A stretch of 64,000 bases of DNA from an uncultured Poribacteria bacterium (GTDB taxonomy: Bacteria; Poribacteria; WGA-4E; PCPOR2b). Numbering within the stretch: the stretch's first letter is position 1; each line of letters opens with the position of its first letter. The notes beneath the pieces were generated by a model. The model saw nothing but the letters and a program-made list of their open reading frames with translations. It made no database searches and had not been told where the DNA came from. Location of the stretch: NCBI GenBank assembly GCA_958296125.1, contig OY282444.1:496001-560000 (forward strand), given 5' to 3'. Positions 5,699-59,790 of this stretch are shown one piece after another. The position numbers and the translations under genes are program-made.

Positions 5699-5727
5699 TT
5701 GACAGGAACTTGATAATATGGTAACAT
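5699..5727 (+). promoter_or_regulatory. Sigma-70-type promoter for the glx/mgs-like operon
   Basis: A perfect -35 box TTGACA (5699-5704) is followed after 17 bases by TAACAT (5722-5727). It lies about 60 bases upstream of the GTG start of the glutamine amidotransferase gene. Position, spacing and boxes all fit a housekeeping promoter. This was read by eye only. Confidence 0.5.
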
Positions 5728-5787
5728 AGACTGCGAACGTTTGCATTTTAACGAGACAACTTGGGAATAATTGAGGAGAAAATCAGG

Positions 5788-6696: not shown

Positions 6697-6717
6697 CAGG
6701 AGGACCAATCCGTAAAA

Positions 6718-6909
6718 ATGAATTTACAAATTAACCTCAACCCGCAAGAAATTCACGGGAATTGGCGGGCAGGATACGCTTTGGATTCTTATAAGGTCTG
6801 TATCCCAAGCATACCTTGTCTCCCCGATAGATCGTCCCCCGTTCCGAGGGCAGGCCTGTCCCGATGCAATCGGGGTTGGAACGGACAATGCTTGGGCTTG
6901 ACGGGCTAA
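6718..6909 (+). pseudogene. Start of a ComF/phosphoribosyltransferase-like gene, truncated
   Basis: An ATG with a strong ribosome-binding site (AGGAGG, about 6700-6705) begins a 63-codon frame. Only its first 27 or so residues look like protein (INLNPQEIHGNWRAGYALDS). This resembles the N-terminus of ComF/amidophosphoribosyltransferase-like proteins (GNW...GYALD) that occur next to DprA-like genes in other bacteria. The resemblance is from memory and unconfirmed. The remaining codons run through palindromic, non-coding-looking sequence. The simplest reading is a phosphoribosyltransferase-DprA pair whose first gene was destroyed after about 80 bases. Confidence 0.4.
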
Positions 6910-6920
6910 AGCCCCTTTTT
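6806..6920. repeat. Nested palindromic element ending in a terminator-like hairpin
   Basis: Nested inverted repeats are visible: CCGTTCC (about 6838) pairs with GGAACGG (about 6878), enclosing CCCGAT/ATCGGG. Outside them lie AAGCAT and ATGCTT. At the right end GGGCTaaAGCCC followed by a T tract (6903-6920) looks like a rho-independent terminator. The same GGGCTAAAGCCCC core recurs at 16903-16915. The element replaces the body of the truncated gene that starts at 6718. Confidence 0.45.
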
Positions 6921-6954
6921 TAAAATTCGCACAGAGGATAGTGATAAGGCATAT

Positions 6955-7707
6955 ATGGAGTACGAGCAACTCAAAACGCAAGGCGTTGAGTTTATCTACC
7001 CCAGGCACCCAGACTTTCCACCGCATCTCCTCGAAATTGCGCCGATGCTGTTCATCAGGGGACAACGAAAACTTCTCACTTCGGATGGGGTTGCAATCGT
7101 AGGGTCGCGGAATGTGTCAGATACAGGGATTCGCGTTGCGCGGCGGCTTGCCGCTGAACTCGCAAACGCGGGGTTAAATATCGTCTCCGGATACGCCAAA
7201 GGGGTTGATTCAGAAGCCCACTTGGGCGCATTAGCCGCAGAGGGAACAACCACAATGGTGCTGCCTTACGGTATCAAGGAACTCCGCCAGAAAAGCGCGT
7301 TCAGGGAATTCGATTGGCAACGGAATGTGTTGGCGGTTTCGCAGTTTGACCCGGGCATCAAGTGGTTGGCTCGCAATGCAATGGCTCGGAACAAACTTGT
7401 TTGTGCGCTCTCTAAGACTGTCGTCGTAATTGAATCAGGGCTTGAGCGAGATGCACAGGGGAAAATGTCTGGAACCTTTAACACCGCTCAAACGGCTCTC
7501 AGTATGGGCTTGCCGCTGTTTGTCCTAGATCCAAAATGCTTTGATAATCCTCCAAAAGGGAATGAAGATTTAATTAAGTTGGGCGGTGAACGCCTCGATC
7601 CGGAAGAGGGTGCAGCGGAGATTGTTAAATGTATTCCTGCTGCAAAAATGGAACCGCCCTCCGATGAACAGCAGGATTCTTCTGAGCAATTAGAGATTCG
7701 TTTCTGA
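6955..7707 (+). CDS. DprA/Smf-like Rossmann-fold (SLOG superfamily) protein
   Basis: This 250-residue protein has the DprA core. The visible motifs are YPRHPDFPPHLLEIAPMLFI, then VAIVGSRNVSDTG, NIVSGYAKGVDSEAHLGAL and TTTMVLPYGI. The last residues of the core are replaced by a longer helical segment (NAMARNKLVCALSKTVVVIE) typical of the family. True DprA loads RecA on single-stranded DNA during transformation, but stand-alone or divergent DprA-like proteins also sit in stress and defence contexts. No N-terminal SAM domain or C-terminal winged helix is evident, so the transformation role is uncertain. It lies inside an amino-acid metabolism operon where it does not belong functionally. The insert is flanked by two copies of the GATase gene end, indicating acquisition by recombination. 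Confidence 0.8.
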   Translation: MEYEQLKTQGVEFIYPRHPDFPPHLLEIAPMLFIRGQRKLLTSDGVAIVGSRNVSDTGIRVARRLAAELANAGLNIVSGYAKGVDSEAHLGALAAEGTTTMVLPYGIKELRQKSAFREFDWQRNVLAVSQFDPGIKWLARNAMARNKLVCALSKTVVVIESGLERDAQGKMSGTFNTAQTALSMGLPLFVLDPKCFDNPPKGNEDLIKLGGERLDPEEGAAEIVKCIPAAKMEPPSDEQQDSSEQLEIRF

Positions 7708-7713
7708 GGGGGT

Positions 7714-7765
7714 CTATAAGGTGCATAAAGCACTAGCAAAGGATGTGGATATATGGCAGAGATAA
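7714..7765 (+). repeat. Second copy of the duplicated GATase 3' end
   Basis: In frame this encodes YKVHKALAKDVDIWQR-stop, a diverged version of the true GATase C-terminus at 6645-6696. Its stop TAA (7763-7765) overlaps the start of the GXGXG gene (ATG at 7753), suggesting that the ancestral GATase and GXGXG genes overlapped by 13 bases before the DprA-like module entered. Confidence 0.7.
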
Positions 7766-8463
7766 TCTGTGAAGGTAAAACGACCCGCGACATCAACGCG
7801 GAAATCAAACGCCTCATCGCTAGTGGTGAAACCGATATTTGTATGAGAGGGCCCGTCGCCCGGCACAACTTAGGTGTGGCGATCCTACAGTCGGTCAAGC
7901 TGACCTTCGACGGAAGTGTTGGCTACTACTGTGCAGGGATGGTTGACGGTCCCACCGTCGAAATTAAAGGGAGCGCAGGATGGGGATTGGCGGAGTCCAT
8001 GATGGGTGGCACTGTTACTGTCGAGGGGAATGCGGGCAACGGCGCGGCGGCTTCAATTCGAGGCGGGACAGTTGTCATTCGCAGCGATGCGGCTGCGCGG
8101 TTAGGCGTTTCAATGAAAGGCGGATTGATTATTGTTGGGGGCAATTGCGGCTACATGGCGGGTTTCATGGCACAGCGGGGAACAATTATCGTCTGCGGAG
8201 ATACCGGCGAAGCCTTCGCCGATTCGATGTATGAAGCGGTTTGCTTTGTCGGCGGCAACATCGCTGAGCTCGGTAACGATGCCGTGATTGAAGAACCGAC
8301 CACAGAAGACCTCACCTTTCTCGAATCCACCCTATTCCAGCATCTCCCCGCCAAAGTTGACAATTCACAGACCGTCATCTGCAATTTTAAGAAAGTCATC
8401 TCCGGGCGCAAGCTGTGGAACTTCAACAAGGACGAGCGAGCAGTGTGGCGGGAGGCGTTGTAA
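7753..8463 (+). CDS. glxC: GXGXG-domain subunit of a split glutamate-synthase-like enzyme (GlxC/MgsB type)
   Basis: This 236-residue right-handed beta-helix corresponds to the C-terminal GXGXG domain of the glutamate synthase large subunit. The repeated glycine pattern is obvious: GSVGYYCAGMVDG, GSAGWGLAESMMGG, GNAGNGAAASIRGG and GNCGYMAGFMAQRG. It has no catalytic residues. In GltB this domain holds the GATase and FMN domains in the right geometry, and here it is a separate chain. AAAGGA at 7738-7743 is a suitable ribosome-binding site. It is the middle subunit of the operon formed with the GATase (5788) and the FMN subunit (9097). Confidence 0.85.
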   Translation: MAEIICEGKTTRDINAEIKRLIASGETDICMRGPVARHNLGVAILQSVKLTFDGSVGYYCAGMVDGPTVEIKGSAGWGLAESMMGGTVTVEGNAGNGAAASIRGGTVVIRSDAAARLGVSMKGGLIIVGGNCGYMAGFMAQRGTIIVCGDTGEAFADSMYEAVCFVGGNIAELGNDAVIEEPTTEDLTFLESTLFQHLPAKVDNSQTVICNFKKVISGRKLWNFNKDERAVWREAL

Positions 8464-8487
8464 TTCGCCACAACAGGAGGTAATGTA

Positions 8488-8838
8488 ATGTCCATGAATG
8501 TTCGAGGTGTCCAAGTCCCCGAAGGGGCAACGGTGGACCTCAAAATTGAGATAACAGCACAAGTAAACATCACAGCCTTTGTAGCACAGCAGAAAGTTAC
8601 GCAATTTGTCATCAGTGAAATCAGTAATCAACTTTGCGGTGACAAACCTGATTTGAATATCGGTGAGCGTCTGTGCTGGTTAGTGCCGGTTGTACTTACA
8701 TCACCTGCTAAGGGCACCATTGGGCGTGTCGGTGAAATTTTGGTCGATGCAGATACGGGCGAATTGCTAGCGGATACAGACACCGTAGAAAGGATTGACG
8801 CTAATGCCGAATGGCTGGCTCAACGTTCCCCACTTTAG
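8488..8838 (+). CDS. Small protein of unknown function paired with a C39-like peptidase
   Basis: This 116-residue protein is not recognised. It starts from an ATG with a strong AGGAGG at 8475-8480. The N-terminus is beta-rich (EGATVDLKIEITAQVNITAF). The C-terminal half reads LCWLVPVVLTSPAKGTIGRV, then GEILVDADTGELLADTD. It overlaps the start of the following peptidase-like gene by 35 bases, so the two were a translationally coupled pair. It has no signal peptide or membrane segment. It may be the partner, regulator or substrate of the peptidase. The pair sits between the GXGXG and FMN subunit genes, where glx/mgs operons normally have nothing. Confidence 0.6.
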   Translation: MSMNVRGVQVPEGATVDLKIEITAQVNITAFVAQQKVTQFVISEISNQLCGDKPDLNIGERLCWLVPVVLTSPAKGTIGRVGEILVDADTGELLADTDTVERIDANAEWLAQRSPL

Positions 8839-9052
8839 GCAAGAATTCAACTACTCGTGCGTTGCTGCATGCGTCCGCATGGTGATGGCGTATTACGGAC
8901 ATAACGAATCAGAAGATAACGTTGGCAAGTTTTCAACGAGCATGGGCAACGACGGGACACTTGGCAGCCCTTATTCGTCCACAGTCATGAGAGAGAAGTT
9001 TTCACCAAACACTCGGTGTGTCGCGCAACCGTGTCTGGTGTATTGGACCTAG
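8804..9052 (+). pseudogene. C39-like cysteine peptidase, truncated
   Basis: The ATG at 8804 begins NVPHFRQEFNYSCVAACVRM, then VMAYYGHNESED. This is the start of a papain-like C39 peptidase domain with the catalytic cysteine in CVAACV preceded by the conserved Gln/Tyr/Ser region. C39 domains need about 130-150 residues including a catalytic histidine and aspartate. Here the frame stops after 83 codons and the tail (residues 40-83) does not look like the family. The enzyme is therefore probably inactive. Frames downstream to 9096 show no clear continuation. Confidence 0.6.
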
Positions 9053-9096
9053 AACGATAGCGCGACGTTGTTGGTATTTTCGGGATTCAAAACAAC

Positions 9097-10440
9097 ATGC
9101 CAGACAAATCAAATAACCTCCGAACCAGTGGAACATTCACCCCCGACATCATTGAAGATATCCAAGTCAAGGCGGACTTGGGCAGATACCGTATCCGCGG
9201 ATTTGGGACGTTACGCGAGCGGCGATGGGCGACATTTGATGACCTGACTTTCATCCCCTGCACCCTGACCCGCATCCCGCTCGAAGGCTATCGGGAACGC
9301 TGTTCACCCAAAACCCTGATCGGCACCCGCTTCGCTGAAAAGCCAATTGAGCTTGAAGTTCCGATCATGATCACCGGCATGAGTTGGGGAGCACTCTCTT
9401 ACAACGCCAAAGTCGCGCTGGCAAAAGGCGCGAATATCGTCGGTTCATCTAACACCACCGGCGACGGCGGGATGCTGATGGCGGAGCGTGAGCACAGCCG
9501 GGCCCTAATCTACGAGGTGCTGCCGTCCCGTTACGGCATCAACATCCACCATCTACGGATGGCGGATGGCATTGAGTTGACGATTGGACAAGGCGCGAAG
9601 CCGGGAACGGGGGGATTATTGCTCGGCTCGAAGGTTTTGGATACGGTTGCGGAACAACGTGATTTACCCCTTGGTGTGGATCAACGCAGCCCAGCGCGGC
9701 ATCCCGACTTCCTCGGCCCCGACGATATGATTATTAAAATCGAAGAATTACGTGAGGCGACCGACTGGCAGGTGCCAATCTTCGTGAAGATGGGGGCAAC
9801 GCGGGTGTTTGACGACGTGAAGTTGGCGGCAAAGGCGGGTGCCGATGTCATCGTTGTAGACGGCATGGAAGGCGGCACCGGCGCATCCGCCGAAATCTGT
9901 CAAGAACATACAGGGGTTCCGACGCTCGCTGCCGTATGTGAGGCACGCGCGGCACTCGAAGACCTCGGATTGTACGGCGAAGTGCAGCTCATTATCGCGG
10001 GCGGCATCCGCCACGGTGTGGACGCAGCAAAGGCGATGGCACTCGGTGCAGATGCGGTATACATTGGCACAGCAGCACTGATGGCACTCAACTGTAACAG
10101 ACCCATCCACCTCGAAGATTACCACGAACTTGGTACCGAGCCTTACCACTGCCACCACTGCCACACAGGACGCTGCCCCGTCGGGATTACGACGCAGGAC
10201 CCCGACCTGATGAAACGCCTCGACATTGACGAAGCATCAGAGCGCGTCGCCAACCTGCTGCAAGCGATGACTTCGGAGATCCAGATCCTCGCCCGCGCTT
10301 GCGGCAAGGCGGACGTACACGACCTCGACCCCGAAGACCTCCGCGCATTAAACTTGGAAGCGTCAATGATTTGCGGCATTCCGCTCGTTGGGACGAACCG
10401 TGTGTTTGGCGGCGGACCGGGGTGGAAGGAGCGGGAGTAA
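9097..10440 (+). CDS. glxD: FMN/Fe-S central subunit of a split glutamate-synthase-like enzyme (GlxD/MgsC type)
   Basis: This 447-residue TIM barrel is equivalent to the FMN-binding synthase domain of GltB. Key segments are MITGMSWGALSYNAKVALAK, GQGAKPGTGGLLLGSKV, DVIVVDGMEGGTGASAEI and ADAVYIGTAALMALNC. A 3Fe-4S cysteine cluster follows in CHHCHTGRCPVGITTQ (about residues 350-365). The enzyme reduces an iminoglutarate-type intermediate made with ammonia from the GATase subunit. In methylotrophs the homologue uses methylamine to give N-methylglutamate. The ribosome-binding site is weak, so coupling to upstream translation is plausible. It ends 61 bases before the GlnT-like gene. Confidence 0.88.
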   Translation: MPDKSNNLRTSGTFTPDIIEDIQVKADLGRYRIRGFGTLRERRWATFDDLTFIPCTLTRIPLEGYRERCSPKTLIGTRFAEKPIELEVPIMITGMSWGALSYNAKVALAKGANIVGSSNTTGDGGMLMAEREHSRALIYEVLPSRYGINIHHLRMADGIELTIGQGAKPGTGGLLLGSKVLDTVAEQRDLPLGVDQRSPARHPDFLGPDDMIIKIEELREATDWQVPIFVKMGATRVFDDVKLAAKAGADVIVVDGMEGGTGASAEICQEHTGVPTLAAVCEARAALEDLGLYGEVQLIIAGGIRHGVDAAKAMALGADAVYIGTAALMALNCNRPIHLEDYHELGTEPYHCHHCHTGRCPVGITTQDPDLMKRLDIDEASERVANLLQAMTSEIQILARACGKADVHDLDPEDLRALNLEASMICGIPLVGTNRVFGGGPGWKERE

Positions 10441-48540: not shown

Positions 48541-50289
48541 TTACTCATCACCTATCGGTTTCGCTAGGTTGGCTATCTCCAAAATCCCATCAAGCACTTC
48601 GGATACTTCTGGATCAATCTGATCTGAGGGAACATATTGGACAAGGGTGTGATAATTTGTTTTTCGCATCAGATTCTCCAATCCCAGCTTTTTGAAAAAG
48701 CGATCGAAGAGCCGATCCAGAAAATCATCGCTCACTTTGGTATTCGGGGACCAAGGCGAGCTTTCACCAAGTGTCGCTAGGGCATCTTCAATCTCCGCAA
48801 TCGCTTCTTCCATTGTAGACAGCCATTGATTTGTAAATTGATTAGCAAACAGTGGTCCTGTGCTCTGTCTCTCTCCTTCGACTTCTGCCCATGCCATTAA
48901 CACCTCTTTTTGGCACAGGTAATTCTCAATCTCGCGCCGCTTCCACTTATACTCCTTTAATTCAGGGGTAGTTTTCAGCTCGGGTTCAATCCGATCAAAG
49001 AGACAGAATCCAACCAAATCGGTTTTCGCCTCCCGCAATCCATAAAAATGTTTACGGGCTTCCCGCGGTTGATTTTCAACATAGTGTACAAATGGACGTT
49101 TCAATCTATCTGCTACATCGTGCTGCAGTTTCTCCGCAAACGCTTGTAAAATTGCTAGGTCTGTTGAGCCCTCAAGATAGAGCACCCATCCCTTCTGTTC
49201 TGCCTGATAATACTGCTCAAATCCAATACTTTTAAGCGATTTCAAAAGCTGGCTACCGCGGTCATCAATGCGATGGGGTGCACCGAGAAAGGCAATGACA
49301 ACGTCCCGATCGGCTGCCTCGTTAAGAATAACCTCAGAATGGCTGGCGGCGATGATTTGACTGTCATGTTCCCTAGCAAGTTCGGTGAGCGTTTGATAAA
49401 TCTGCCTTTGCCGAAGAATCTCAAGGTGTGCATCTGGCTCATCCAGCAGAAGGACTGACCCCGGATGTGCCCCAATATATGCGAGCAGAAGTAGCGTTTG
49501 TTGAAGCCCACGTCCTGACGAGGAGAGATCGAGAGAGATCGAGCCAGCCCGATAGCTCATCTCAATCTCCCCGCGTCCAGGAATGTAATTCGGCTCATCA
49601 AGCTGAACGCCGAATAGGTCTTCGATCTGCTGGCAGATTGTTTCCCACGTTTCATTATCTCCGCGCTCCTGCAAAACCTGATAGCAGAGGTTACGAAGGA
49701 CCTCAGCGGTCCGCCCTTCCCCAACACGAACATTGATTGCCCCAGTATCAAGGCGTGTCTCATTCGACGTAAGCCCGGACATCGGTGGCAGGAAAGCAAC
49801 ATCAAGATTTGTGGCCGCTTCAGGAACAGGTATTCGTTTCAACACCTGACCGTCCACTTCCGGTAATCGCAGGGGCCGGCAGTAAAAGGATTCCTGATTG
49901 GCATAATCAAATTCCAAACCACATTCCCACTGCCTGCCAGCAGTAACGCCTTCAACGGTAATATCCATACGGACGTTTTGCGTCTGTTGCTTACCATCAG
50001 TTCTCTGAATATCTCGGATCTGCAAATTTCGCCAGAGCAACCTTGCATTCGGCACAGAGAGGGAGATAAGGTCGCGCCGGTTGACAGCAACGCCCGGTCG
50101 CCTTTCTGCTTTCGGTCTCCCCTTACGGTGCTCGTTCCAACGTTTGAGCCCAATATCCCACAGGGCGAGTGCCTGCAAAGCCGTTGTTTTGCCTGAGTTA
50201 TTCGGTCCAATGAAGACAACGGGATTCCCCAATTCGACTTCTATTTCTCCAAAGCATTTGAAATTGCGACAAATCAATTTCGTCAGCAT
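48541..50289 (-). CDS. OLD-like AAA ATPase with C-terminal TOPRIM-like region
   Basis: This 582-residue protein begins at the ATG at 50289 (GGAGGAG upstream). An ABC/SMC-type ATPase head contains Walker A in FIGPNNSGKTTALQAL, the signature DLSSSGRGLQQTLLLLAY and Walker B in VLLLDEPDAHLEI, with ASHSEVI as switch histidine. After residue 340 follow LYLEGSTDLAILQAF and later GFCLFDRIEP, which fit the TOPRIM/metal-binding part of OLD-family nucleases. Such proteins act as phage or plasmid defence effectors (OLD, GajA, RM-associated ATPases). It is the last gene of a run with type III restriction genes and Rpn nucleases on the same strand. Confidence 0.82.
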   Translation of the reverse strand: MLTKLICRNFKCFGEIEVELGNPVVFIGPNNSGKTTALQALALWDIGLKRWNEHRKGRPKAERRPGVAVNRRDLISLSVPNARLLWRNLQIRDIQRTDGKQQTQNVRMDITVEGVTAGRQWECGLEFDYANQESFYCRPLRLPEVDGQVLKRIPVPEAATNLDVAFLPPMSGLTSNETRLDTGAINVRVGEGRTAEVLRNLCYQVLQERGDNETWETICQQIEDLFGVQLDEPNYIPGRGEIEMSYRAGSISLDLSSSGRGLQQTLLLLAYIGAHPGSVLLLDEPDAHLEILRQRQIYQTLTELAREHDSQIIAASHSEVILNEAADRDVVIAFLGAPHRIDDRGSQLLKSLKSIGFEQYYQAEQKGWVLYLEGSTDLAILQAFAEKLQHDVADRLKRPFVHYVENQPREARKHFYGLREAKTDLVGFCLFDRIEPELKTTPELKEYKWKRREIENYLCQKEVLMAWAEVEGERQSTGPLFANQFTNQWLSTMEEAIAEIEDALATLGESSPWSPNTKVSDDFLDRLFDRFFKKLGLENLMRKTNYHTLVQYVPSDQIDPEVSEVLDGILEIANLAKPIGDE

Positions 50290-50339
50290 TTCTGCTCCTC
50301 CAAGAACGATAGGCTCATATAAAAAGAGAGTCAAACAGA

Positions 50340-50363
50340 GCAACCACAGGGGTTGCCCCTACA
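50340..50363. repeat. Short palindromic repeat, copy A
   Basis: GCAACCACAGGGGTTGC followed by CCCTACAG resembles the element at 59915-59940. It lies between the ATPase and restriction genes and is likely a dispersed repetitive palindrome. Confidence 0.45.
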
Positions 50364-50395: not shown

Positions 50396-52939
50396 TTAGC
50401 TATGCGAATATTGTTCGCCCAACCGTGCGGCTATCTCCGAGAATTCGTGCTCGCTGAACACCAATTGAAAGATGCTTTGGGGTGCCTCACGCAGCTTTAC
50501 CGTGCCGACAGCATTGAATGTCCCCTCAAGTGCTTGCAACACCTTCCGCTTGTACTCGGTGTCAGGGTTGCCGAGCAGGTGTTCGCCTTTTGTCTCGAAA
50601 ATTAACAGGCGCGTTTCGCTCGCCATCGCAACGAAGTCGGGATAAATGCGTTCCTGTTTCCAACCTTGCAGGTAATACTCGCCCTGTTGACGCACCGCGA
50701 CTCGATGCCACCATTGCACTGCCTTCTGCTCATCAAGATAACAAGCAAATTTCTTTTCCAATTCGCTATCGAAGTGCTGCTCAAATACCGATTCAAACAG
50801 GCTAAGCTGTAAGGGCTCGCCATACCTTTTTACGAGTTGCCTATCGTTGGAGTGAACCTGTATGTCATAGTTACGTACCATACGAAAATTCGGCTGTCCG
50901 GTCTCTAAGTCAAAACGGATTTTACCCCTCTTCAGTTTTTCGTGGAAAACCTGCTCCGCCTGATTTTCCACTTCATTCTTGACATGCTCCCGTAACTGAT
51001 GTGCGAGATAAGCACGTCGGTCGTAGATATCCGCTTCAGTTTCGCCTTTCCGCTTCAGGAGCTCGCCCAATTGCTCTGCAATGCGGGCGGCATGCCATGG
51101 ATTGGGTAGAACATCGGACAGATGGCGTGTGAAGTCCGAAACTTTGACCGTTTTGTCAATATACACCCCTCGCTCGGCATGGTAGATAGGCGGTGTCTCC
51201 TCCATATCAACCGTTGCGGATTGCCATCTTGGGCCGTCGGATGCAGATGCTTTCGGGTCAGGCGGTCCGATTTTCGACCAATCTATATGCGGGAGGATAT
51301 GAGATTGATAATCGAGTTGCACCCAATGGTCGCCGTTTTTATGGAGCACCATCGGCAGAAAGATATCCTGCCCCTGAAATCGATCGCGGCGATGCACGGT
51401 CCGCTGCTGCCCCTCGCTCTCTTGCTGTAAGGTGCCCATCACCTCGTCGTCCAAGCCTGTTAGCCCCTCCGCTTCCAAGCCCCTTTTGACCTGTTCGACG
51501 ACGGTGCCCACTTCGACGTTATTGCAATAGACATAACATTGATCTAGTAATTCTCTATCGGTGCGTTGCGCGCCCGGTTGCCGCATCACCCGCCCCAATA
51601 GTTGCGTTATGGCTCGTTGTGCCTGCGTATTGTCTAACATCACCAACAGATAAGCAAACGGGCAATCCCAACCTTCCATCAGTGCAGATTTTGTGATGAT
51701 CCATCGCACCTGCGAAAATTCGGAGAGTAGATTTTCTCTGCCGAGTTCGTCGTTTTCGGCAGATTTAACGCGAATCGCATCGGAAGGCACGTTTAAGTGT
51801 TGTGTGAGATATTCCCGCACATCCTCTGCGTGAATATACCCGCTATCCTTCTGATTGTTACCCGTCCGCTCAACGCGCACAACGGCGATAGGACGGATAT
51901 AACGCCCCGTGCTGTGCTCAAGGTCCGTCGCTTCGGCATTTAGCCGCTCTAGTTCCTCAACCGCCTGTCCCAGCGTTAACCCCCACTCGGCGTTTGGGAA
52001 TGATGTTACCTGTACCGGCAGTTTGATCATCTCCTCCTTTTTCAGGTCGGGCCCTTCGATATCGACAAGCAGATTGCTAATACCGTGGTTCGGGGTCGCA
52101 GAGAGTTCGATAACCAGCTGGGGGTTCAGACGGTTGATGGAACGGGCAAATTCTTCGTTCGCCTCCCGCTTTTTCGATCCATACGCTTTATGTGCCTCGT
52201 CAAGAACAACGACGGGACGCAGTATCTTGAGCACATTAAAGAGACTGTGTTTGATTGTTCCTCCTTCAACATTGCACTCCAAATCCGGGTAGGTTTCCAT
52301 CATACGGCCGTCACTGAGGAGATCATCACCGTCCGGGAAAAAACTGGGATAACGTCCTGCATCCTTAAACATACGCAGAAACTCTTTCCCCTTTTGTCGA
52401 TTCGCCGCCGGTAACATCAGCAACATAACGCACAAGTAATTAACGATATCATCCCTATTGAACGGATCATCCTTTTCCAACATTTTGACGCGGCCCGCGC
52501 TTGCCCGTTCCAACATTTGACGATACGGATGCTCCCGATTCCACAGGGCGGCTTTGGTTTGCGCGTAGATAGCCTTGCTCGGCACAATCCACAATGTCAG
52601 CCCGGTCTGTCGATTGAGGCGTTCTAGAGCGGCGGCGGCGAGCAAGGTTTTTCCCCCACCTGTGGGCACCTTGAAACAGATATGTGGAATCGGGCGGTCT
52701 GCGCCGTCGGTGCGGTTGATGTATTCGCCGGCAGTTGCCGCCACACCATCATATTCCTTGAGTCTATTCCACGCTGTTTTAGGATAATTACGCGCCTCAT
52801 TGAGGATTGCACTATCAACCCCTGTCTTTCTCAACGCCTTAACCGCAGTGTCTGATTCATTCTGTGCGTCTTTGAGTGCTTCCAACCAACAGCTAAAAGC
52901 GTCGAGTGCACGGAGTTGATACGTTTTCAATTCCATCAT
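50396..52939 (-). CDS. Type III restriction enzyme, Res subunit (helicase-nuclease)
   Basis: This 847-residue superfamily 2 helicase has Walker A in FKVPTGGGKTLLAAAAL, a DEAH box in VLDEAHKAYG, SATPNHG (motif III) and LLGRVMRQPG (motif VI). The C-terminal endonuclease shows the PD-(D/E)XK core in IYPDFVAMASETRLLIFETK. It partners with the Mod subunit encoded 12 bases upstream to cut foreign DNA at sites lacking modification, after ATP-driven translocation or sliding. The length is slightly shorter than EcoP15I Res. Lying between Mod and the OLD-like ATPase, it forms the centre of a defence island. Confidence 0.9.
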   Translation of the reverse strand: MMELKTYQLRALDAFSCWLEALKDAQNESDTAVKALRKTGVDSAILNEARNYPKTAWNRLKEYDGVAATAGEYINRTDGADRPIPHICFKVPTGGGKTLLAAAALERLNRQTGLTLWIVPSKAIYAQTKAALWNREHPYRQMLERASAGRVKMLEKDDPFNRDDIVNYLCVMLLMLPAANRQKGKEFLRMFKDAGRYPSFFPDGDDLLSDGRMMETYPDLECNVEGGTIKHSLFNVLKILRPVVVLDEAHKAYGSKKREANEEFARSINRLNPQLVIELSATPNHGISNLLVDIEGPDLKKEEMIKLPVQVTSFPNAEWGLTLGQAVEELERLNAEATDLEHSTGRYIRPIAVVRVERTGNNQKDSGYIHAEDVREYLTQHLNVPSDAIRVKSAENDELGRENLLSEFSQVRWIITKSALMEGWDCPFAYLLVMLDNTQAQRAITQLLGRVMRQPGAQRTDRELLDQCYVYCNNVEVGTVVEQVKRGLEAEGLTGLDDEVMGTLQQESEGQQRTVHRRDRFQGQDIFLPMVLHKNGDHWVQLDYQSHILPHIDWSKIGPPDPKASASDGPRWQSATVDMEETPPIYHAERGVYIDKTVKVSDFTRHLSDVLPNPWHAARIAEQLGELLKRKGETEADIYDRRAYLAHQLREHVKNEVENQAEQVFHEKLKRGKIRFDLETGQPNFRMVRNYDIQVHSNDRQLVKRYGEPLQLSLFESVFEQHFDSELEKKFACYLDEQKAVQWWHRVAVRQQGEYYLQGWKQERIYPDFVAMASETRLLIFETKGEHLLGNPDTEYKRKVLQALEGTFNAVGTVKLREAPQSIFQLVFSEHEFSEIAARLGEQYSHS

Positions 52940-52951
52940 GTCGCCACCTCT

Positions 52952-54598
52952 TTACCTTTCGTGCAGTGCATGGGGGAGTTGACAGAATGTAATGCCCATT
53001 CCCGTGAGTTCTCGCTGGCCTATGTATTTGCCCGGGGCGTAAACGATTGCCTTACCCCCGTTCTGACGGTTGGCTTTGTGGATGCGTTGTGCTCGTTCAA
53101 GGTTAAGCATCACCTCGTTGCACCGCAAGTACTCAAGGTCGGGTTGGTAGAGCAGGTAGTAGTCAATTTTGTCGGCACTGTGAAAGAGACCGTCACCGTT
53201 TTTCGATTTCAACGCATCAGTCCCGACAGAAACCCCAGAGGCAATATACAGTAGATGGGCGGCGAGTGATTCGTAAGAGGGGAGGGCCTCCCCGGTGAGC
53301 ATCCCCTCCATTTCAATCGGCTTACCCAATGTGCCGTAGGTGAAGGAGCCGCCCAAGCCTTCGCGCAATGAAGCATCGCGGGCCTTGGGAATACCGTTAA
53401 TGACACGGCGGATCCGCTCGGCGGTGATGGTGTCGGCGTAATCTTCGCATTCAATGAGGATAAATTTCCGATTGCCGCCATCTTCCTTGTTCAAAGCGAG
53501 TACAGCGTGTGCTGTCGTGCCGGAGCCTGCGAATGAGTCTAGGACGATGTCATCCGATGAGAGATTGGCAGTTTGGAATACCCTCTGAATCAGCTTAGTG
53601 CCTTTGGGATTGTTGAATACACCTTTTCCCATTATCGAAGAAAGTTCTTCGTTCGCTTGATGGGTACTTCCCACATCTTGATAAGTCCACAATGATCCTA
53701 CGGTTTTGCCATCCTTCACCTCGCTTAGATAAGTCTTCTTGTTAGGTTGGGATTTTCCGCTCTTACCAAAGTAAAGTTGGCCATCATCGTATAGATCCAT
53801 GAGCTTCGCTTGGGTGTACCTCGGAAATCTTCCTTCCGGGCAATGCCACGTAACACCGTTAGGGAATTTAAGCGAATACCTATCTCTATCCCTGCCACTT
53901 TTTGCATGTAACGGAGTTGCTTTCCATGCTCCCTTCGGATCTTCATCGGGATTCTTGTATGTCTTGTCCATTTCTGCTGTCCTTGGAAGAACGCCGATTT
54001 GACACGTATCTAAATTCTTCGCATAGGAGAGGATGTTCTCGTGCTGATACGAGACGGTTTTGGAATCGTTAGCCAATGTGTACTTGGACCACCAAGTAAA
54101 ATTGGCGACTATGTTCTCCGCCCCAAAAATCTCATCCATCAGCATCCGTAGGTGGTGTTCTTCATTATCATCAATGGAGATAAAAATTATACCATTGTCC
54201 GCAAGTAATTCTTTTAGTAGGTGCAACCGTGGCCACATCATACAGAGCCATTTGTCGTGTCGCTCAAGGTCTTCGTTATCAACGGGACTGTGCTCTGCGA
54301 GCCACTGCTGCATAAGTGAACTGTTGACGTTGTCGTTATAACACCATCCTTCGTTGCCGGTGTTGTAGGGTGGATCGATGTAGATGCACTTAACACGGTT
54401 CGCATAGCGGGGCAGCAAGGCTTTGAGGGCGTGTAGGTTATCTCCGTGGATGATGAGGTTATCATCGGCACCCCCCGCTTTCCCCCCGCAGGCAGGGGGC
54501 TTGCAGGAGCGGCTTTCGTCCGTTTCAATCGGCCGGTAGGGAACGGTGAGATGGTGGGCGTAGATATGTTGTTTCCCTTTGAAGTCGAGTGTGGGCAT
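52952..54598 (-). CDS. Type III DNA methyltransferase, Mod subunit
   Basis: This 548-residue beta-class N6-adenine methyltransferase has DPPY in CIYIDPPYNTGNEGW (about residue 94) and later the AdoMet-binding FxGxG in VLDSFAGSGTTAHAVLALN. Motif IV before motif I defines the beta group. The central variable part (about 160-330) should hold target recognition. Mod methylates host DNA and gives specificity to the restriction complex. The ATG at 54598 follows AAAGGA. It starts 42 bases after the end of the truncated Rpn gene. Confidence 0.92.
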   Translation of the reverse strand: MPTLDFKGKQHIYAHHLTVPYRPIETDESRSCKPPACGGKAGGADDNLIIHGDNLHALKALLPRYANRVKCIYIDPPYNTGNEGWCYNDNVNSSLMQQWLAEHSPVDNEDLERHDKWLCMMWPRLHLLKELLADNGIIFISIDDNEEHHLRMLMDEIFGAENIVANFTWWSKYTLANDSKTVSYQHENILSYAKNLDTCQIGVLPRTAEMDKTYKNPDEDPKGAWKATPLHAKSGRDRDRYSLKFPNGVTWHCPEGRFPRYTQAKLMDLYDDGQLYFGKSGKSQPNKKTYLSEVKDGKTVGSLWTYQDVGSTHQANEELSSIMGKGVFNNPKGTKLIQRVFQTANLSSDDIVLDSFAGSGTTAHAVLALNKEDGGNRKFILIECEDYADTITAERIRRVINGIPKARDASLREGLGGSFTYGTLGKPIEMEGMLTGEALPSYESLAAHLLYIASGVSVGTDALKSKNGDGLFHSADKIDYYLLYQPDLEYLRCNEVMLNLERAQRIHKANRQNGGKAIVYAPGKYIGQRELTGMGITFCQLPHALHER

Positions 54599-54640
54599 GG
54601 TGAAATTCCTTTGGGGTTCCTGCGGTGATTAACATCGTTC

Positions 54641-54949
54641 TTACTCCTCCATTGAGGAAGGCTCGTCTTTCAACTGCAAGAGTTGTGCTTCCGGAAGGTT
54701 TGTGATTTCAGAAATGAGTGTTATCTCCATTCCCTTGGCAAGCATTGCCTTTGCAGCTTCAATCCGGCCTTCGAGCAAACCTTCCTGTTTGCCCTCAATT
54801 CTGCCTTTCTGCTCACCTTCGAGCAGTCCTTCCTGCTTACCCTCAAGCAGCCCTTCTTGCTTGCCCTCAAGCAGTCCTTCCTGCTTGCCTTCAAGCAGCC
54901 CGTTTTGAAAAATCTGCTGCCTTTCTCGCTCTAACGCAGCGACTAACAT
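54641..54949 (-). CDS. Stand-alone Rpn C-terminal protein (fifth, truncated copy; candidate antitoxin)
   Basis: This 102-residue protein is homologous only to the C-terminal third of the neighbouring Rpn nucleases. The ATG at 54949 follows a perfect Shine-Dalgarno AGGAGGTGA (54955-54963). An alternative TTG at 54988 lacks one. It contains LVAALERERQQIFQNG, five 8-residue units of the LLEGKQEG type (54779-54898) and the conserved tail AKAMLAKGMEITLISEITNL. The catalytic nuclease domain is gone. The 5' end was joined to leader sequence (bases 55067-55090) at a short CCG microhomology. It equals the internal frame of the full copies and resembles the intragenic RpnS antitoxin reported for E. coli. 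The function is inferred. Confidence 0.6.
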   Translation of the reverse strand: MLVAALERERQQIFQNGLLEGKQEGLLEGKQEGLLEGKQEGLLEGEQKGRIEGKQEGLLEGRIEAAKAMLAKGMEITLISEITNLPEAQLLQLKDEPSSMEE

Positions 54950-55093
54950 CGTCTTCACCTCCTCTTCGTTGCGGTAAATGTATTCCAACGACTGATAATC
55001 GCCAGATTCAATCCGTCCGTGGAACGCTAACTGCCTAAACCAGTTTAAGAACAGACTTACCGCGATTGTCGAGAGCGGTGATTAACATTGTTT

Positions 55094-56068
55094 TCACTCC
55101 TTCGCTGAGGAAAGCGCGGCTTTCAACTGCAAGAGTTGTGCTTCCGGAAGGTTTGTGATTTCAGAAATGAGTGTCATCTCCATTCCCTTGGCAAACATTG
55201 CCTTTGCAGCTTCAATCCGGCCTTCGAGCAAACCTTCCTGCTTGCCCTCAAGCAGCCCTTCCTGTTTGCCCTCGAGCAGTCCTTCCTGCTTACCCTCAAG
55301 CAGCCCGTTTTGAAAAATCTGCTGCCTTTCTCGCTCTAACGCAGCGACTAACATCGTCTTCACCTCCTCTTCGTTGCGGTAAATGTATTCTAACGACTGA
55401 TAATCGCCAGATTCAATTCGTCCGTGGAATGCTAACTGCCTAAACCAGTTTAAGAACAGACTCACCGCCTGTTTGTCCGCCTCCACAGAAAACAGATTCA
55501 GCAGCTCTACCTCCAGCAAATCTAAATCATAATGGGATTCTGCCAAAAATAACGTCGATACAATGTTTCGGATTGTTAACAACGCATCCTGACTGTATTG
55601 GTTCTCCGCAATCAGAAAATACTGAAAATCTAATGCAAATGTACCGAGGGGCGGGTGCTGTTCAATCAACCTAGAAAGATTCACAGGGGCCGTCCAAGGT
55701 GCTTCTCCGTTATACAGCACGATTGGAAAAACCGCCGGCAATTTTTTGACACCTCTGTTATTGACGAGAAAATCCATGTAAAAGTTGGTAATGTAGTTCA
55801 GCACCCGTAACGCCATGAACGGGTCAACGGTGGATTGAAACTCAATGAGAATATAGATATAGACCTCACGGTCATGAAACTGGATTTTGTAGATTAAGTC
55901 ACTCTCGGTTTCTTTGTAATGTTCGGAGATAAACGATTTATCAAGGGGTTCACAACTGGAGAAATCGAGAGCATGAACCCACTCTTGATTGACAAAGGTC
56001 TCAAGCAGTTGTCGAAATATGGTCCGATTTGAGAATAGTTTCTTATATCCGCTGTCGTGGATGTTCAT
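55094..56068 (-). CDS. Rpn-family PD-(D/E)XK recombination-promoting nuclease, copy 1
   Basis: This protein of about 324 residues starts at ATG 56068 (AAAAGGTG upstream, TGATG overlap with a leader frame). The domain at residues 1-200 begins MNIHDSGYKKLFSNRTIFRQ and carries the nuclease core ETESDLIYKIQFHDREVYIY followed by ILIEFQST (E-x-Q in place of E-x-K). The family is known from E. coli RpnA and PF-type DUF4351 transposase-like proteins; it cleaves DNA and is toxic or anti-phage. The C-terminus has three 8-residue repeats. An internal AGGAGGTGA (55360-55368) precedes ATG 55354, which would give an 86-residue C-terminal protein. This copy differs at one point in the tail (AKAMFAKG). Confidence 0.85.
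   Translation of the reverse strand: MNIHDSGYKKLFSNRTIFRQLLETFVNQEWVHALDFSSCEPLDKSFISEHYKETESDLIYKIQFHDREVYIYILIEFQSTVDPFMALRVLNYITNFYMDFLVNNRGVKKLPAVFPIVLYNGEAPWTAPVNLSRLIEQHPPLGTFALDFQYFLIAENQYSQDALLTIRNIVSTLFLAESHYDLDLLEVELLNLFSVEADKQAVSLFLNWFRQLAFHGRIESGDYQSLEYIYRNEEEVKTMLVAALERERQQIFQNGLLEGKQEGLLEGKQEGLLEGKQEGLLEGRIEAAKAMFAKGMEMTLISEITNLPEAQLLQLKAALSSAKE
55354..55368 (-). promoter_or_regulatory. Internal ribosome-binding site and start in Rpn copy 1
   Basis: AGGAGGTGA lies at 55360-55368, with ATG at 55354-55352 in frame with the nuclease gene. The internal frame spans 55094-55354. Confidence 0.55.
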
Positions 56069-56248
56069 CACTGACACCTTTTGAGCCAATAGGGTAAACG
56101 GATTCTTTCCAGTGTTGAAGAAAGTTCGTCCAGTCGGCGTATAACGTGAAGGCGCATGTTAACAATTCGTTTGGTTGGATTTGCGCTATATCATGTCTTT
56201 TGCTCCTTTCTGTTCCGAGATTGTCGAGAGCGGTGCCTAACATTGTTT

Positions 56249-57247
56249 TCACTCCTTCACCGAGGAAAGCGCGGCTTTCAACTGCAAGAGTTGTGCTTCC
56301 GGAAGATGGGTGATTTCAGAAATGAGTCTCATCTCCATTCCCTTGGCAAGCATGGCCTTTGCAGCTTCAATCCGGCCTTCGAGCAAACCTTCCTGTTTGC
56401 CCTCGACTCTGCCTTTCTGCTCACCTTCGAGCAGCCCTTTCTGCTCACCTTCGAGCAGCCCTTCCTGCTTGCCCTCAAGCAGCCCGTTTTGAAAAATCTG
56501 CTGCCTTTCTCGCTCTAACGCAGCGACTAACATCGTCTTCACCTCCTCTTCGTTGCGGTAAATGTATTCTAACGACTGATAATCGCCAGATTCAATTCGT
56601 CCGTGGAATGCTAACTGCCTAAACCAGTTTAAAAACAGACTCACCGCCTGTTTGTCCGCCTCCACAGAAAACAGATTCAGTAGTTCTACCTCCAGCAAAT
56701 CTAAATCATAATGGGATTCTGCCAAAAACAACGTCGATACAATGTTTCGGATTGTTAACAACGCCTCCTGACCGTATTGATTCTCCGCAATCAGAAAATA
56801 CTGAAAATCTAATGCAAATGTACCGAGGGGCGGGTGCTGTTCAATCAACCTAGAAAGATTCACAGGGGCCGTCCAAGGTGCTTCTCCGTTATACAGCACG
56901 ATTGGGAAAACCGCCGGCAGTCTGTTGACGTTTCTGTTATTGACGAGAAAATCCATGTAAAAGTTGGTAATGTAGTTCAGCACCCGTAACGCCATGAACG
57001 GGTCAACGGTGGATTGAAACTCAATGAGAATATAGATATAGACCTCACGGTCATGAAACTGGATTTTGTAGATTAAGTCACTCTCGGTTTCTTTGTAGTG
57101 TTCGGAGATAAACGATTTATCAAGGGGTTCACAACTGGAGAAGTCGAGAGCATGGACCCACTCTTGATTGACAAAGGTCTCAAGCAGTTGCCGAAATATG
57201 GTCCGATTTGAGAATAGTTTCTTATATCCGCTGTCGTGGATGTTCAT
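56249..57247 (-). CDS. Rpn-family PD-(D/E)XK nuclease, copy 2
   Basis: This copy of about 332 residues starts at ATG 57247. Here a 3-base change in the leader removes the upstream TTG used as possible start in the other copies, which supports ATG as the true initiator of the family. The nuclease core is unchanged from copy 1 (YIYILIEFQST). The C-terminus carries four 8-residue repeats (LLEGKQEG, two LLEGEQKG, RVEGKQEG) and ends GMEMRLISEITHLPEAQ. Internal AGGAGGTGA (56539-56547) precedes ATG 56533, giving a 94-residue product. It is followed by a small frame with AAGGAG at 56252-56257. Confidence 0.85.
   Translation of the reverse strand: MNIHDSGYKKLFSNRTIFRQLLETFVNQEWVHALDFSSCEPLDKSFISEHYKETESDLIYKIQFHDREVYIYILIEFQSTVDPFMALRVLNYITNFYMDFLVNNRNVNRLPAVFPIVLYNGEAPWTAPVNLSRLIEQHPPLGTFALDFQYFLIAENQYGQEALLTIRNIVSTLFLAESHYDLDLLEVELLNLFSVEADKQAVSLFLNWFRQLAFHGRIESGDYQSLEYIYRNEEEVKTMLVAALERERQQIFQNGLLEGKQEGLLEGEQKGLLEGEQKGRVEGKQEGLLEGRIEAAKAMLAKGMEMRLISEITHLPEAQLLQLKAALSSVKE
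56533..56547 (-). promoter_or_regulatory. Internal ribosome-binding site and start in Rpn copy 2
   Basis: AGGAGGTGA lies at 56539-56547, with ATG at 56533-56531 in frame with the nuclease gene. The internal frame spans 56249-56533. Confidence 0.55.
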
Positions 57248-57424
57248 CACTGACACCTTTTGAAATAGGGTAAACGGATTCTTTCCGGTGTTGAAGAAAG
57301 TTTGTCCAGTCGGCGTATAACGTGAAGGCGCATGTTAACAATTCGTTCGGTTGGATTTGCGCTATATCATGTCTTTTGCTCCTTTCTGTTCCGAGATTGT
57401 CGAGAGCGGTGCCTAACATTGTTT

Positions 57425-58423
57425 TCACTCCTTCACCGAGGAAAGCGCGGCTTTCAACTGCAAGAGTTGTGCTTCCGGAAGATGGGTGATTTCAGAAATG
57501 AGTCTCATCTCCATTCCCTTGGCAAGCATGGCCTTTGCAGCTTCAATCCGGCCTTCGAGCAAACCTTCCTGTTTGCCCTCGACTCTGCCTTTCTGCTCCC
57601 CTTCGAGCAGCCCTTCCTGCTTGCCCTCAAGCAGTCCTTCTTGCTTGCCCTCAAGCAGCCCGTTTTGAAAAATCTGCTGCCTTTCTCGCTCTAACGCAGC
57701 GACTAACATCGTCTTCACCTCCTCTTCGTTGCGGTAAATGTATTCTAACGACTGATAATCGCCAGATTCAATCCGTCCGTGGAATGCTAACTGCCTAAAC
57801 CAGTTTAAAAACAGACTTACCGCCTGTTTGTCCGCCTCCACAGAAAACAGATTCAGCAGCTCTACCTCCAGCAAATCTAAATCATAATGGGATTCTGCCA
57901 AAAATAACGTTGATACAATGTTTCGGATTGTTAACAACGCATCCTGACTGTATTGATTCTCCGCAATCAGAAAATACTGAAAATCTAATGCAAATGTACC
58001 GCGGGGCGGGTGCTGTTCAATCAACCTAGAAAGATTCACAGGGGCCGTCCAAGGTGCTTCTCCATTATACAGCACGATTGGGAAAACCGCCGGCAGTCTG
58101 TTGACGTTTCTGTTATTGACGAGAAAATCCATGTAAAAGTTGGTAATGTAGTTCAGCACCCGTAACGCCATGAACGGGTCAACGGTGGATTGAAACTCAA
58201 TGAGAATATAGATATAGACCTCACGGTCATGAAACTGGATTTTGTAGATTAAATCACTCTCGGTTTCTTTGTAATGTTCGGAGATAAACGATTTATCAAG
58301 GGGTTCACAACTGGAGAAATCGAGAGCATGAACCCATTCTTGGTTGACAAAGGTCTCAAGCAGTTCCCGAAATATGGTCCGATTTGAGAATAGTTTCTTA
58401 TATCCACTGTCGTGGATGTTCAT
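57425..58423 (-). CDS. Rpn-family PD-(D/E)XK nuclease, copy 3
   Basis: This copy of about 332 residues starts at ATG 58423. It differs from the others at few places (FRELLETF for FRQLLETF; HPPRGTFALDFQYF for HPPLG). Four 8-residue repeats (two LLEGKQEG, LLEGEQKG, RVEGKQEG) are present. The tail is identical to that of copy 2 (GMEMRLISEITHLPEAQ), while part of its N-terminal half matches copy 1 better, indicating gene conversion between units. Internal AGGAGGTGA (57715-57723) precedes ATG 57709, giving a 94-residue product. Confidence 0.85.
   Translation of the reverse strand: MNIHDSGYKKLFSNRTIFRELLETFVNQEWVHALDFSSCEPLDKSFISEHYKETESDLIYKIQFHDREVYIYILIEFQSTVDPFMALRVLNYITNFYMDFLVNNRNVNRLPAVFPIVLYNGEAPWTAPVNLSRLIEQHPPRGTFALDFQYFLIAENQYSQDALLTIRNIVSTLFLAESHYDLDLLEVELLNLFSVEADKQAVSLFLNWFRQLAFHGRIESGDYQSLEYIYRNEEEVKTMLVAALERERQQIFQNGLLEGKQEGLLEGKQEGLLEGEQKGRVEGKQEGLLEGRIEAAKAMLAKGMEMRLISEITHLPEAQLLQLKAALSSVKE
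57709..57723 (-). promoter_or_regulatory. Internal ribosome-binding site and start in Rpn copy 3
   Basis: AGGAGGTGA lies at 57715-57723, with ATG at 57709-57707 in frame with the nuclease gene. The internal frame spans 57425-57709. Confidence 0.55.
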
Positions 58424-58603
58424 CACTGACACCTTTTGAGCCAATAGGGTAAACGGATTCTTTCCGGTGTTGAAGAAAGTTTGTCCAGTCGGCGTATAAC
58501 GTGAAGGCGCATGTTAACAATTCGTTCGGTTGGATTTGCGCTGTATCATGTCTTTTGCTCCTTTTTGTTCCGAGATTGTCGAGAGCGGTGACTAACATTG
58601 TTT

Positions 58604-59650
58604 TCACTCCTTCACCGAGGAAAGCGCGGCTTTCAACTGCAAGAGTTGTGCTTCCGGAAGGTTTGTGATTTCAGAAATGAGTGTCATCTCCATTCCCTTA
58701 GCAAGCATTGCCTTTGCAGCTTCAATCCGGCCTTCGAGCAAACCTTCCTGTTTGCCCTCAATTCTGCCTTTCTGCTCACCTTCGAGCAGCCCTTTCTGCT
58801 CACCTTCGAGCAGTCCTTCCTGCTTGCCCTCAAGCAGCCCTTCCTGCTTGCCCTCGAGCAGTCCTTCCTGCTTACCCTCAAGCAGCCCGTTTTGAAAAAT
58901 CTGCTGCCTTTCTCGCTCTAACGCAGCGACTAACATCGTCTTCACCTCCTCTTCGTTGCGGTAAATGTATTCCAACGACTGATAATCGCCAGATTCAATC
59001 CGTCCGTGGAATGCTAACTGCCTAAACCAGTTTAAGAACAGACTCACCGCCTGTTTGTCCGCCTCCACAGAAAACAGATTCAGCAGCTCTACCTCCAGCA
59101 AATCTAAATCATAATGGGATTCTGCCAAAAATAACGTCGATACAATGTTTCGGATTGTTAACAACGCATCCTGACTGTATTGGTTCTCCGCAATCAGAAA
59201 ATACTGAAAATCTAATGCAAATGTACCGAGGGGCGGGTGCTGTTCAATCAACCTAGAAAGATTCACAGGGGCCGTCCAAGGTGCTTCTCCGTTATACAGC
59301 ACGATTGGGAAAACCGCCGGCAATTTTTTGACACCTTTGTTATTGACGAGAAAATCCATGTAAAAGTTGGTAATGTAGTTCAGCACCCGTAACGCCATGA
59401 ACGGGTCAACGGTGGATTGAAACTCAATGAGAATATAGATATAGACCTCACGGTCATGAAACTGGATTTTGTAGATTAAGTCACTCTCGGTTTCTTTGTA
59501 ATGTTCGGAGATAAACGATTTATCAAGGGGTTCACAACTGGAGAAATCGAGAGCATGAACCCATTCTTGGTTGACAAAGGTCTCAAGCAGTTGCCGAAAT
59601 ATGGTCCGATTTGAGAATAGTTTCTTATATCCGCTGTCGTGGATGTTCAT
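58604..59650 (-). CDS. Rpn-family PD-(D/E)XK nuclease, copy 4 (first in transcription order)
   Basis: This is the longest copy, about 348 residues, starting at ATG 59650. It has six 8-residue repeats (three LLEGKQEG, two LLEGEQKG, RIEGKQEG), the largest number in the array. Its tail (GMEMTLISEITNLPEAQ) is like copy 1. Internal AGGAGGTGA (58942-58950) precedes ATG 58936, giving a 110-residue product. Upstream of 59790 the sequence is unique, so the promoter of the array should lie between there and 60296. The leader frame in front of this copy lacks the AAGGAG-ATG start seen in the other units. Confidence 0.85.
   Translation of the reverse strand: MNIHDSGYKKLFSNRTIFRQLLETFVNQEWVHALDFSSCEPLDKSFISEHYKETESDLIYKIQFHDREVYIYILIEFQSTVDPFMALRVLNYITNFYMDFLVNNKGVKKLPAVFPIVLYNGEAPWTAPVNLSRLIEQHPPLGTFALDFQYFLIAENQYSQDALLTIRNIVSTLFLAESHYDLDLLEVELLNLFSVEADKQAVSLFLNWFRQLAFHGRIESGDYQSLEYIYRNEEEVKTMLVAALERERQQIFQNGLLEGKQEGLLEGKQEGLLEGKQEGLLEGEQKGLLEGEQKGRIEGKQEGLLEGRIEAAKAMLAKGMEMTLISEITNLPEAQLLQLKAALSSVKE
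58936..58950 (-). promoter_or_regulatory. Internal ribosome-binding site and start in Rpn copy 4
   Basis: AGGAGGTGA lies at 58942-58950, with ATG at 58936-58934 in frame with the nuclease gene. The internal frame spans 58604-58936. Confidence 0.55.
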
Positions 59651-59790
59651 CACTGACACCTTTTGAGCCAATAGGGTAAACGGATTCTTTCCGGTGTTGA
59701 AGAAAGTTCGTCCAGTCGGCGTATAACGTGAAGGCGCATGTTAACAATTCGTTCGGTTGGATTTGCGCTGTATCATGTCTTTTGCTCCTT

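Follow-up and report, generated by a model that had tools for sequence, protein, structure and literature searches.

The closest described counterparts of the locus considered here are the rpn genes of Escherichia coli, in which a small protein, RpnS, is translated from within rpn, binds to the full-length product RpnL and blocks both its DNA cleavage and its toxicity (Zhong et al. 2023, PMC10327210). The two proteins co-purify as a 2:2 complex. With RpnC, the addition of one repeat to only one of the two partners leads to a loss of inhibition, and an RpnS with a different repeat number fails to block RpnL, a rule that has been demonstrated for E. coli RpnC only. The number of RpnS repeats varies across phyla, rpn genes are enriched near defence genes and a plasmid-borne Rpn restricts T-even phages. 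Tandem rpn arrays that result from direct duplication have also been described, and both rpnE and rpnC have a separate rpnS gene behind them (all PMC10327210). A literature search, which covered the main text of Zhong et al., returned no Rpn paper on Poribacteria, and Zhong et al. was the only study of RpnL and RpnS that it found.

The window, which is the whole stretch of 64,000 nucleotides that was analysed, corresponds to positions 496001-560000 of a single-contig genome of 5.16 Mb. Judging by close homologues, the host belongs to Candidatus Poribacteria, a group of sponge symbionts. Between 54641 and 59650 the minus strand carries an Rpn array, consisting of four full-length rpn genes and one truncated copy (Table 1). 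The copies are tandem duplicates that are 97-99% identical, with start-to-start distances of 1176-1227 bases between the full copies and of 405 bases to the truncated copy.

The array has in common with E. coli RpnA-E and RpnP2 (PMC10327210; 7TH0) a PD-(D/E)XK Rpn nuclease, an internal ribosome binding site and start that lead to a C-terminal RpnS, a long repeat helix with variable tetrads joined to a small helical domain, a tandem arrangement, separate rpnS genes and a defence neighbourhood. It differs from them in belonging to another phylum, in having repeats that vary by octads (two tetrads) and in bringing together four nucleases and a standalone rpnS, with a perfect 9-nt Shine-Dalgarno (SD) sequence and adjoining type III restriction genes. 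The E. coli rpnE-ypaA and rpnC-rpnCS loci also have an rpnL followed directly by a standalone rpnS, of unequal repeat length in all haplotypes examined, but contain only one L and one S. In EcoR124I/II, as cited in PMC10327210, the number of four-residue TAEL repeats alters the specificity of a nuclease system, although the proteins are unrelated and the repeats space DNA half-sites rather than govern the choice of partner. The cas10d gene, as cited in the same paper, gives rise to the small subunit Cas11d from an internal start within the gene of the large subunit, but Cas11d is a cooperating subunit and not an antitoxin. An initial reading of the DNA, made from the sequence only, had held that no tandem, repeat-variable Rpn island was known; this claim to novelty largely falls away, as arrays, variable repeats and rpnS genes are all present in PMC10327210. 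What the locus contributes is taxonomic breadth, in that the gene-within-gene antitoxin is no longer confined to E. coli and C. difficile but reaches into Poribacteria and several further phyla, together with a test for selection on the internal start that has no counterpart in the main text of the 2023 paper (PMC10327210).

Table 1. Features of the Rpn array and of the adjoining restriction genes (positions within the window)
Feature	Position	Strand	Details
rpnL copy 1, predicted full-length nuclease	58604..59650	-	ATG at 59650; register 73; PF04754 E 1e-30; TIGR01784 78 bits; ESD...EFQS intact
rpnL copy 2	57425..58423	-	register 57; PF04754; motif intact; pN/pS against other copies 0.08-0.19
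rpnL copy 3	56249..57247	-	register 57; PF04754; motif intact; in pN/pS analysis
rpnL copy 4	55094..56068	-	register 49; PF04754; motif intact; in pN/pS analysis
Predicted rpnS1, internal start, 110 aa	58604..58936	-	SD 58942-58950; ATG first base 58936; match to PDB 7TH0 RpnA-S by profile and fold
Predicted rpnS2, internal start, 94 aa	57425..57709	-	SD 57715-57723; ATG first base 57709
Predicted rpnS3, internal start, 94 aa	56249..56533	-	SD 56539-56547; ATG first base 56533
Predicted rpnS4, internal start, 86 aa	55094..55354	-	SD 55360-55368; ATG first base 55354
Standalone rpnS5, 102 aa	54641..54949	-	register 65; SD 54955-54963; ATG first base 54949; without nuclease domain
Vestigial rpnS start behind copy 1	58584..58603	-	17/20 nt match to rpnS start
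Vestigial rpnS start behind copy 2	57405..57424	-	16/20 nt
Vestigial rpnS start behind copy 3	56229..56248	-	16/20 nt
Vestigial rpnS start behind copy 4	55074..55093	-	18/20 nt
Vestigial second rpnS start, directly behind rpnS5 stop	54621..54640	-	18/20 nt
mod, type III DNA methyltransferase	52952..54598	-	PADLOC MTase_III E 2e-164; Pfam N6_N4_Mtase; begins 42 bp after rpnS5
res, type III restriction enzyme	50396..52939	-	PADLOC REase_III E 5e-187

Every copy of the array contains the 9-mer AGGAGGTGA on the minus strand, followed by AGACG and then by an in-frame ATG (Table 1). The sequence-only reading had described an SD-like site five bases before an in-frame ATG in five of five copies, with C-terminal proteins of 86-110 residues, and both the positions and the lengths are confirmed. 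Across the whole window AGGAGGTGA has 7 matches against 0.4 expected by chance, a number that none of 100 shuffles reached. It is fully complementary to the 3' tail of the genome's own 16S rRNA, GGATCACCTCCTTTCT, with a duplex energy of -18.2 kcal/mol. The copies are recent tandem duplicates, so the five occurrences count as a single event, and because the copies are not independent the internal Met was placed by alignment in homologues, where the site was subjected to a synonymous-recoding test.

For this test, synonymous variants of the 21 bases that precede the aligned internal Met are generated according to the codon usage of the gene in question. The actual site exceeds these variants in strength both among 49 sequences below 95% identity (Fisher p 1e-16) and among 19 sequences below 60% identity (p 1e-6), whilst at 45% identity only 6-8 independent representatives are left. 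All 36 aligned proteins have the internal Met, and the Glu codons three to five places upstream of it are GAG in 76 of 77 cases, compared with 40% elsewhere in the same genes. Where an enlarged homologue set has Leu at codon 2, this is encoded by TTA in 18 of 20 cases; in that set the Met was chosen by the strongest site, which gives an upward bias, and the conclusions on selection rest on the alignment-placed set. When the two start sites of a homologue are compared, that of RpnS is the stronger in 23/23 cases, at a mean of -15.9 kcal/mol as opposed to -6.3 kcal/mol for RpnL. The pattern extends to other Poribacteria, Anaerolineae, Caldilineaceae, Anammoxibacter and Cloacimonetes and is weaker in a Thiotrichaceae genome (-7.4 kcal/mol), which is an example of the modest sites seen in some distant homologues. 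The homologue search that had been proposed for the internal site hence recovers it across several phyla, and the outcome that would have counted against the idea, conservation no greater than codon use imposes, was not what was found: the site is conserved beyond the synonymous null.

It might be argued that RpnL simply needs the residues Glu-Glu-Val-x-x-Met and that the likeness to an SD sequence is a by-product of coding constraint. The codons for EEV do often yield an SD-like sequence, and for individual genes the synonymous p values are only 0.005-0.5. The excess is strong, however, when pooled over independent homologues, with GAG used nearly without exception and TTA favoured at codon 2. 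Moreover, the site persists where the residues have changed from EEV to KEL, MEV, QEI or TGEV, and standalone rpnS genes, which have no RpnL frame to protect, retain the SD and ATG even where the copy has broken elsewhere, a few of them with a weak SD. As the sole cause, coding constraint is refuted by the codon result, and the explanation as a whole is very unlikely. Internal SD-like sequences can also slow ribosomes, such that a strong internal SD could represent a pausing or folding signal in the translation of RpnL rather than a start. The Met held at a 5-nt spacing, the TTA that comes next and the standalone genes that start at exactly this point make such a role extremely improbable. The combined data are evidence that the internal start itself is under selection.

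With respect to the nuclease, all four full copies score 104-107 bits against PF04754, for which the cutoff is 21, and copy 1 also exceeds the cutoff of 52.1 bits for TIGR01784, the curated NCBIfam Rpn family. A catalytic motif of the PD-(D/E)XK type (D ... E-x-Q), ESDLIYK...ILIEFQS, is found in 4/4 copies, and in 36 homologues D57, Q78 and S79 are invariant and E76 is nearly so. A Foldseek search with a model of full-length RpnL gave no significant relative in the PDB, and the assignment of the nuclease fold consequently rests on the sequence families and the motif. In the same genus, rpnL is broken by stops or frameshifts at three loci of relatives (L022, L023 and L027).

Over the 714 nt of the nuclease part, pairs of copies are separated by 6-14 synonymous and 1-7 nonsynonymous changes, and the resulting pN/pS of 0.04-0.19 indicates that the four RpnL copies are under purifying selection. 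This bears on the suggestion that the array is a non-functional amplification, made up of decaying recent duplicates carried beside a restriction system. The near-identity of the copies, the one that is broken, the lack of conserved synteny with mod and the frameshifts in several single-copy homologues of relatives would all agree with such decay, but in all four copies the nuclease part is open and constrained, and the motifs and internal sites are intact throughout, which makes it quite unlikely. The four rpn genes are apparently intact predicted nucleases. The earlier description of an Rpn array with four nucleases and five potential small proteins is upheld, and the internal starts are conserved.

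The small protein also resembles its E. coli namesake. Each LLEGKQEG octapeptide is equivalent to a pair of the tetrad repeats known from RpnS, and across 130 homologues the distance from the internal Met to the C-terminal domain changes mostly in steps of four residues. When the C-terminal proteins are searched by profile against the PDB, E. coli RpnA-S (7TH0) is the sole significant match (E 5.5e-4). In the AlphaFold model of RpnS a long helix leads into a tail of two helices. 7TH0 is also the best fold match of this model, with an rmsd of 0.7 over 38 columns, a weak Foldseek E of 0.6 and a probability of 0.98. The registers, the 4-aa periodicity and the match to 7TH0 thus identify a tetrad-repeat helix of variable number with the RpnA-S fold. 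Rather than an antitoxin, the internal product could be a structural subunit for the assembly of RpnL, much as Cas11d is derived from cas10d. The 2:2 co-purification of the E. coli proteins (PMC10327210) is compatible with this, and inhibition by the RpnS of the array is reasoned by analogy. Nonetheless, E. coli RpnS directly blocks cleavage and toxicity (PMC10327210) and the RpnS fold is alike, and a purely structural role is unlikely.

The sites, their conservation, the constraint on the protein and the assignment of family and fold are direct observations. Very probably, what has been duplicated in tandem at the locus is an Rpn toxin-antitoxin system of the gene-within-gene type, a reading in which translation, inhibition, repeat specificity and phage defence are taken by analogy from E. 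coli. Each of the four rpn genes would produce an RpnL nuclease of the PD-(D/E)XK type from a weak start and an RpnS from the strong internal SD-ATG. RpnS, made in excess from the strong site, would dimerise with the equivalent region of RpnL through the shared repeat helix, as in E. coli RpnA, and thereby keep the nuclease off. Infection or stress would then release RpnL, and DNA would be cut. The number of octapeptide repeats, each comprising two tetrads, probably sets the fit between RpnS and RpnL, in which case registers 73, 57, 57 and 49 would mostly pair separately, as 1-1, 2/3-2/3 and 4-4. Copies 2 and 3 would be the sole case of cross-inhibition, and RpnS5 would be left unmatched. The sequence-only reading had proposed that the four nucleases and five small proteins could combine freely; the published rule predicts otherwise, since only copies 2 and 3 are equal in register. 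The array is a natural set of registers with which to test whether repeat number decides the choice of partner.

The truncated copy has the conserved SD-ATG as its sole canonical start, its truncated frame is preceded at a short distance by an in-frame stop, and a domain search with its product gives only a Yae1_N-type repeat match. From its sequence, rpnS5 is the remnant of a fifth copy that lost its nuclease domain, and its register matches that of no RpnL in the array. A standalone rpnS behind an rpnL is common in Poribacteria, and in none of the 21 nearest pairs is its register equal to that of the neighbouring RpnL. In E. coli, 7 rpnE-ypaA and 5 rpnC-rpnCS haplotypes (the latter with lengths counted between homologous anchors) are likewise unmatched in repeat length in 12/12 cases. 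The literature search found no report of a register mismatch between a standalone RpnS and its neighbouring RpnL. From these pairs it is clear that equal registers are not favoured. Active avoidance is not proven, as random pairing of the lengths observed in the Poribacterial pairs gives about 1.5 expected matches and zero matches in 19% of shuffles, and drift remains an explanation.

In one set of seven species the C-terminal domains of standalone rpnS have a pN/pS of 0.19, to which L-S gene conversion could contribute, compared with 0.21 for their RpnL counterparts. On this comparison, the standalone genes of the set are not decaying but under purifying selection. From the published repeat-number rule and the unequal registers, a standalone RpnS should fail to block the adjacent RpnL, which raises the question of why an antitoxin with a repeat length unfit for its neighbour is kept under purifying selection. 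It is conceivable, though on balance doubtful, that standalone RpnS proteins are kept as antitoxins or modulators whose register differs deliberately, and that they do not neutralise the adjacent RpnL. The alternative lengths may be held for other RpnL proteins, such as those of other loci, incoming plasmids or earlier alleles, or because the nuclease would be locked in the off state by an additional copy with a matching register. Were this so, arrays such as the present one would be stores of diversified registers, as would an independent second array in another Poribacterial genus, L36-S40-S56-L44-S68 (locus L126, G028:C1:3694000-3708000, minus strand 5706-9428).

Several further standalone genes were observed. 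One at locus L004 (2537-2858, G000:C1) has register 57, as do copies 2 and 3 of the array, which lies elsewhere in the genome, but its own neighbour has register 73. At locus L029 (1488-1939) a deletion has removed rpnL from its middle up to a point immediately before the internal SD; what is left is a standalone rpnS whose SD is intact. In E. coli MG1655, ypaA (L125, 3817-4002) is annotated as a pseudogene yet represents an open rpnS, with an SD-ATG as in rpnE and one extra tetrad.

The vestigial rpnS starts that follow the copies of the array (Table 1) have an offset equal to that of two genuine standalone rpnS genes elsewhere in the genome. In one of these, at L004, the SD of the standalone rpnS is formed by the final RpnL codons together with the stop, GAG GAG TGA. 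Most simply, the copies would descend from an ancestral unit of rpnL and a standalone rpnS, in which deletion of the S part left a scar before the unit was duplicated.

The leaders between the copies (56068-56200, 57247-57384, 58423-58563 and 59650-59790) contain short ORFs that overlap the start of the next rpnL (TGATG), an arrangement that possibly reflects translational coupling; an in-frame 3-nt deletion is present before copy 3. Promoter-like matches in the array (11 against 6.6 expected) and terminator-like ones (1 against 6.6) are uninformative.

The type III restriction-modification neighbour has both mod and res, as identified by PADLOC, and the link with type III restriction drawn in the sequence-only reading is accordingly real at this locus. 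It does not extend further, as rpn lies within 1.5 kb of a homologous mod at none of 11 other Poribacterial loci. Type III restriction was hence rejected as a general part of the Rpn system, and the linkage here looks incidental. Directly behind res is an AAA ATPase (window 48541-50343), which is nearest to defence ATPases of the AriA/Old/Gabija type through weak and partial matches that fall far short of the single curated NCBIfam cutoff approached, and which may be a further defence gene in the run.
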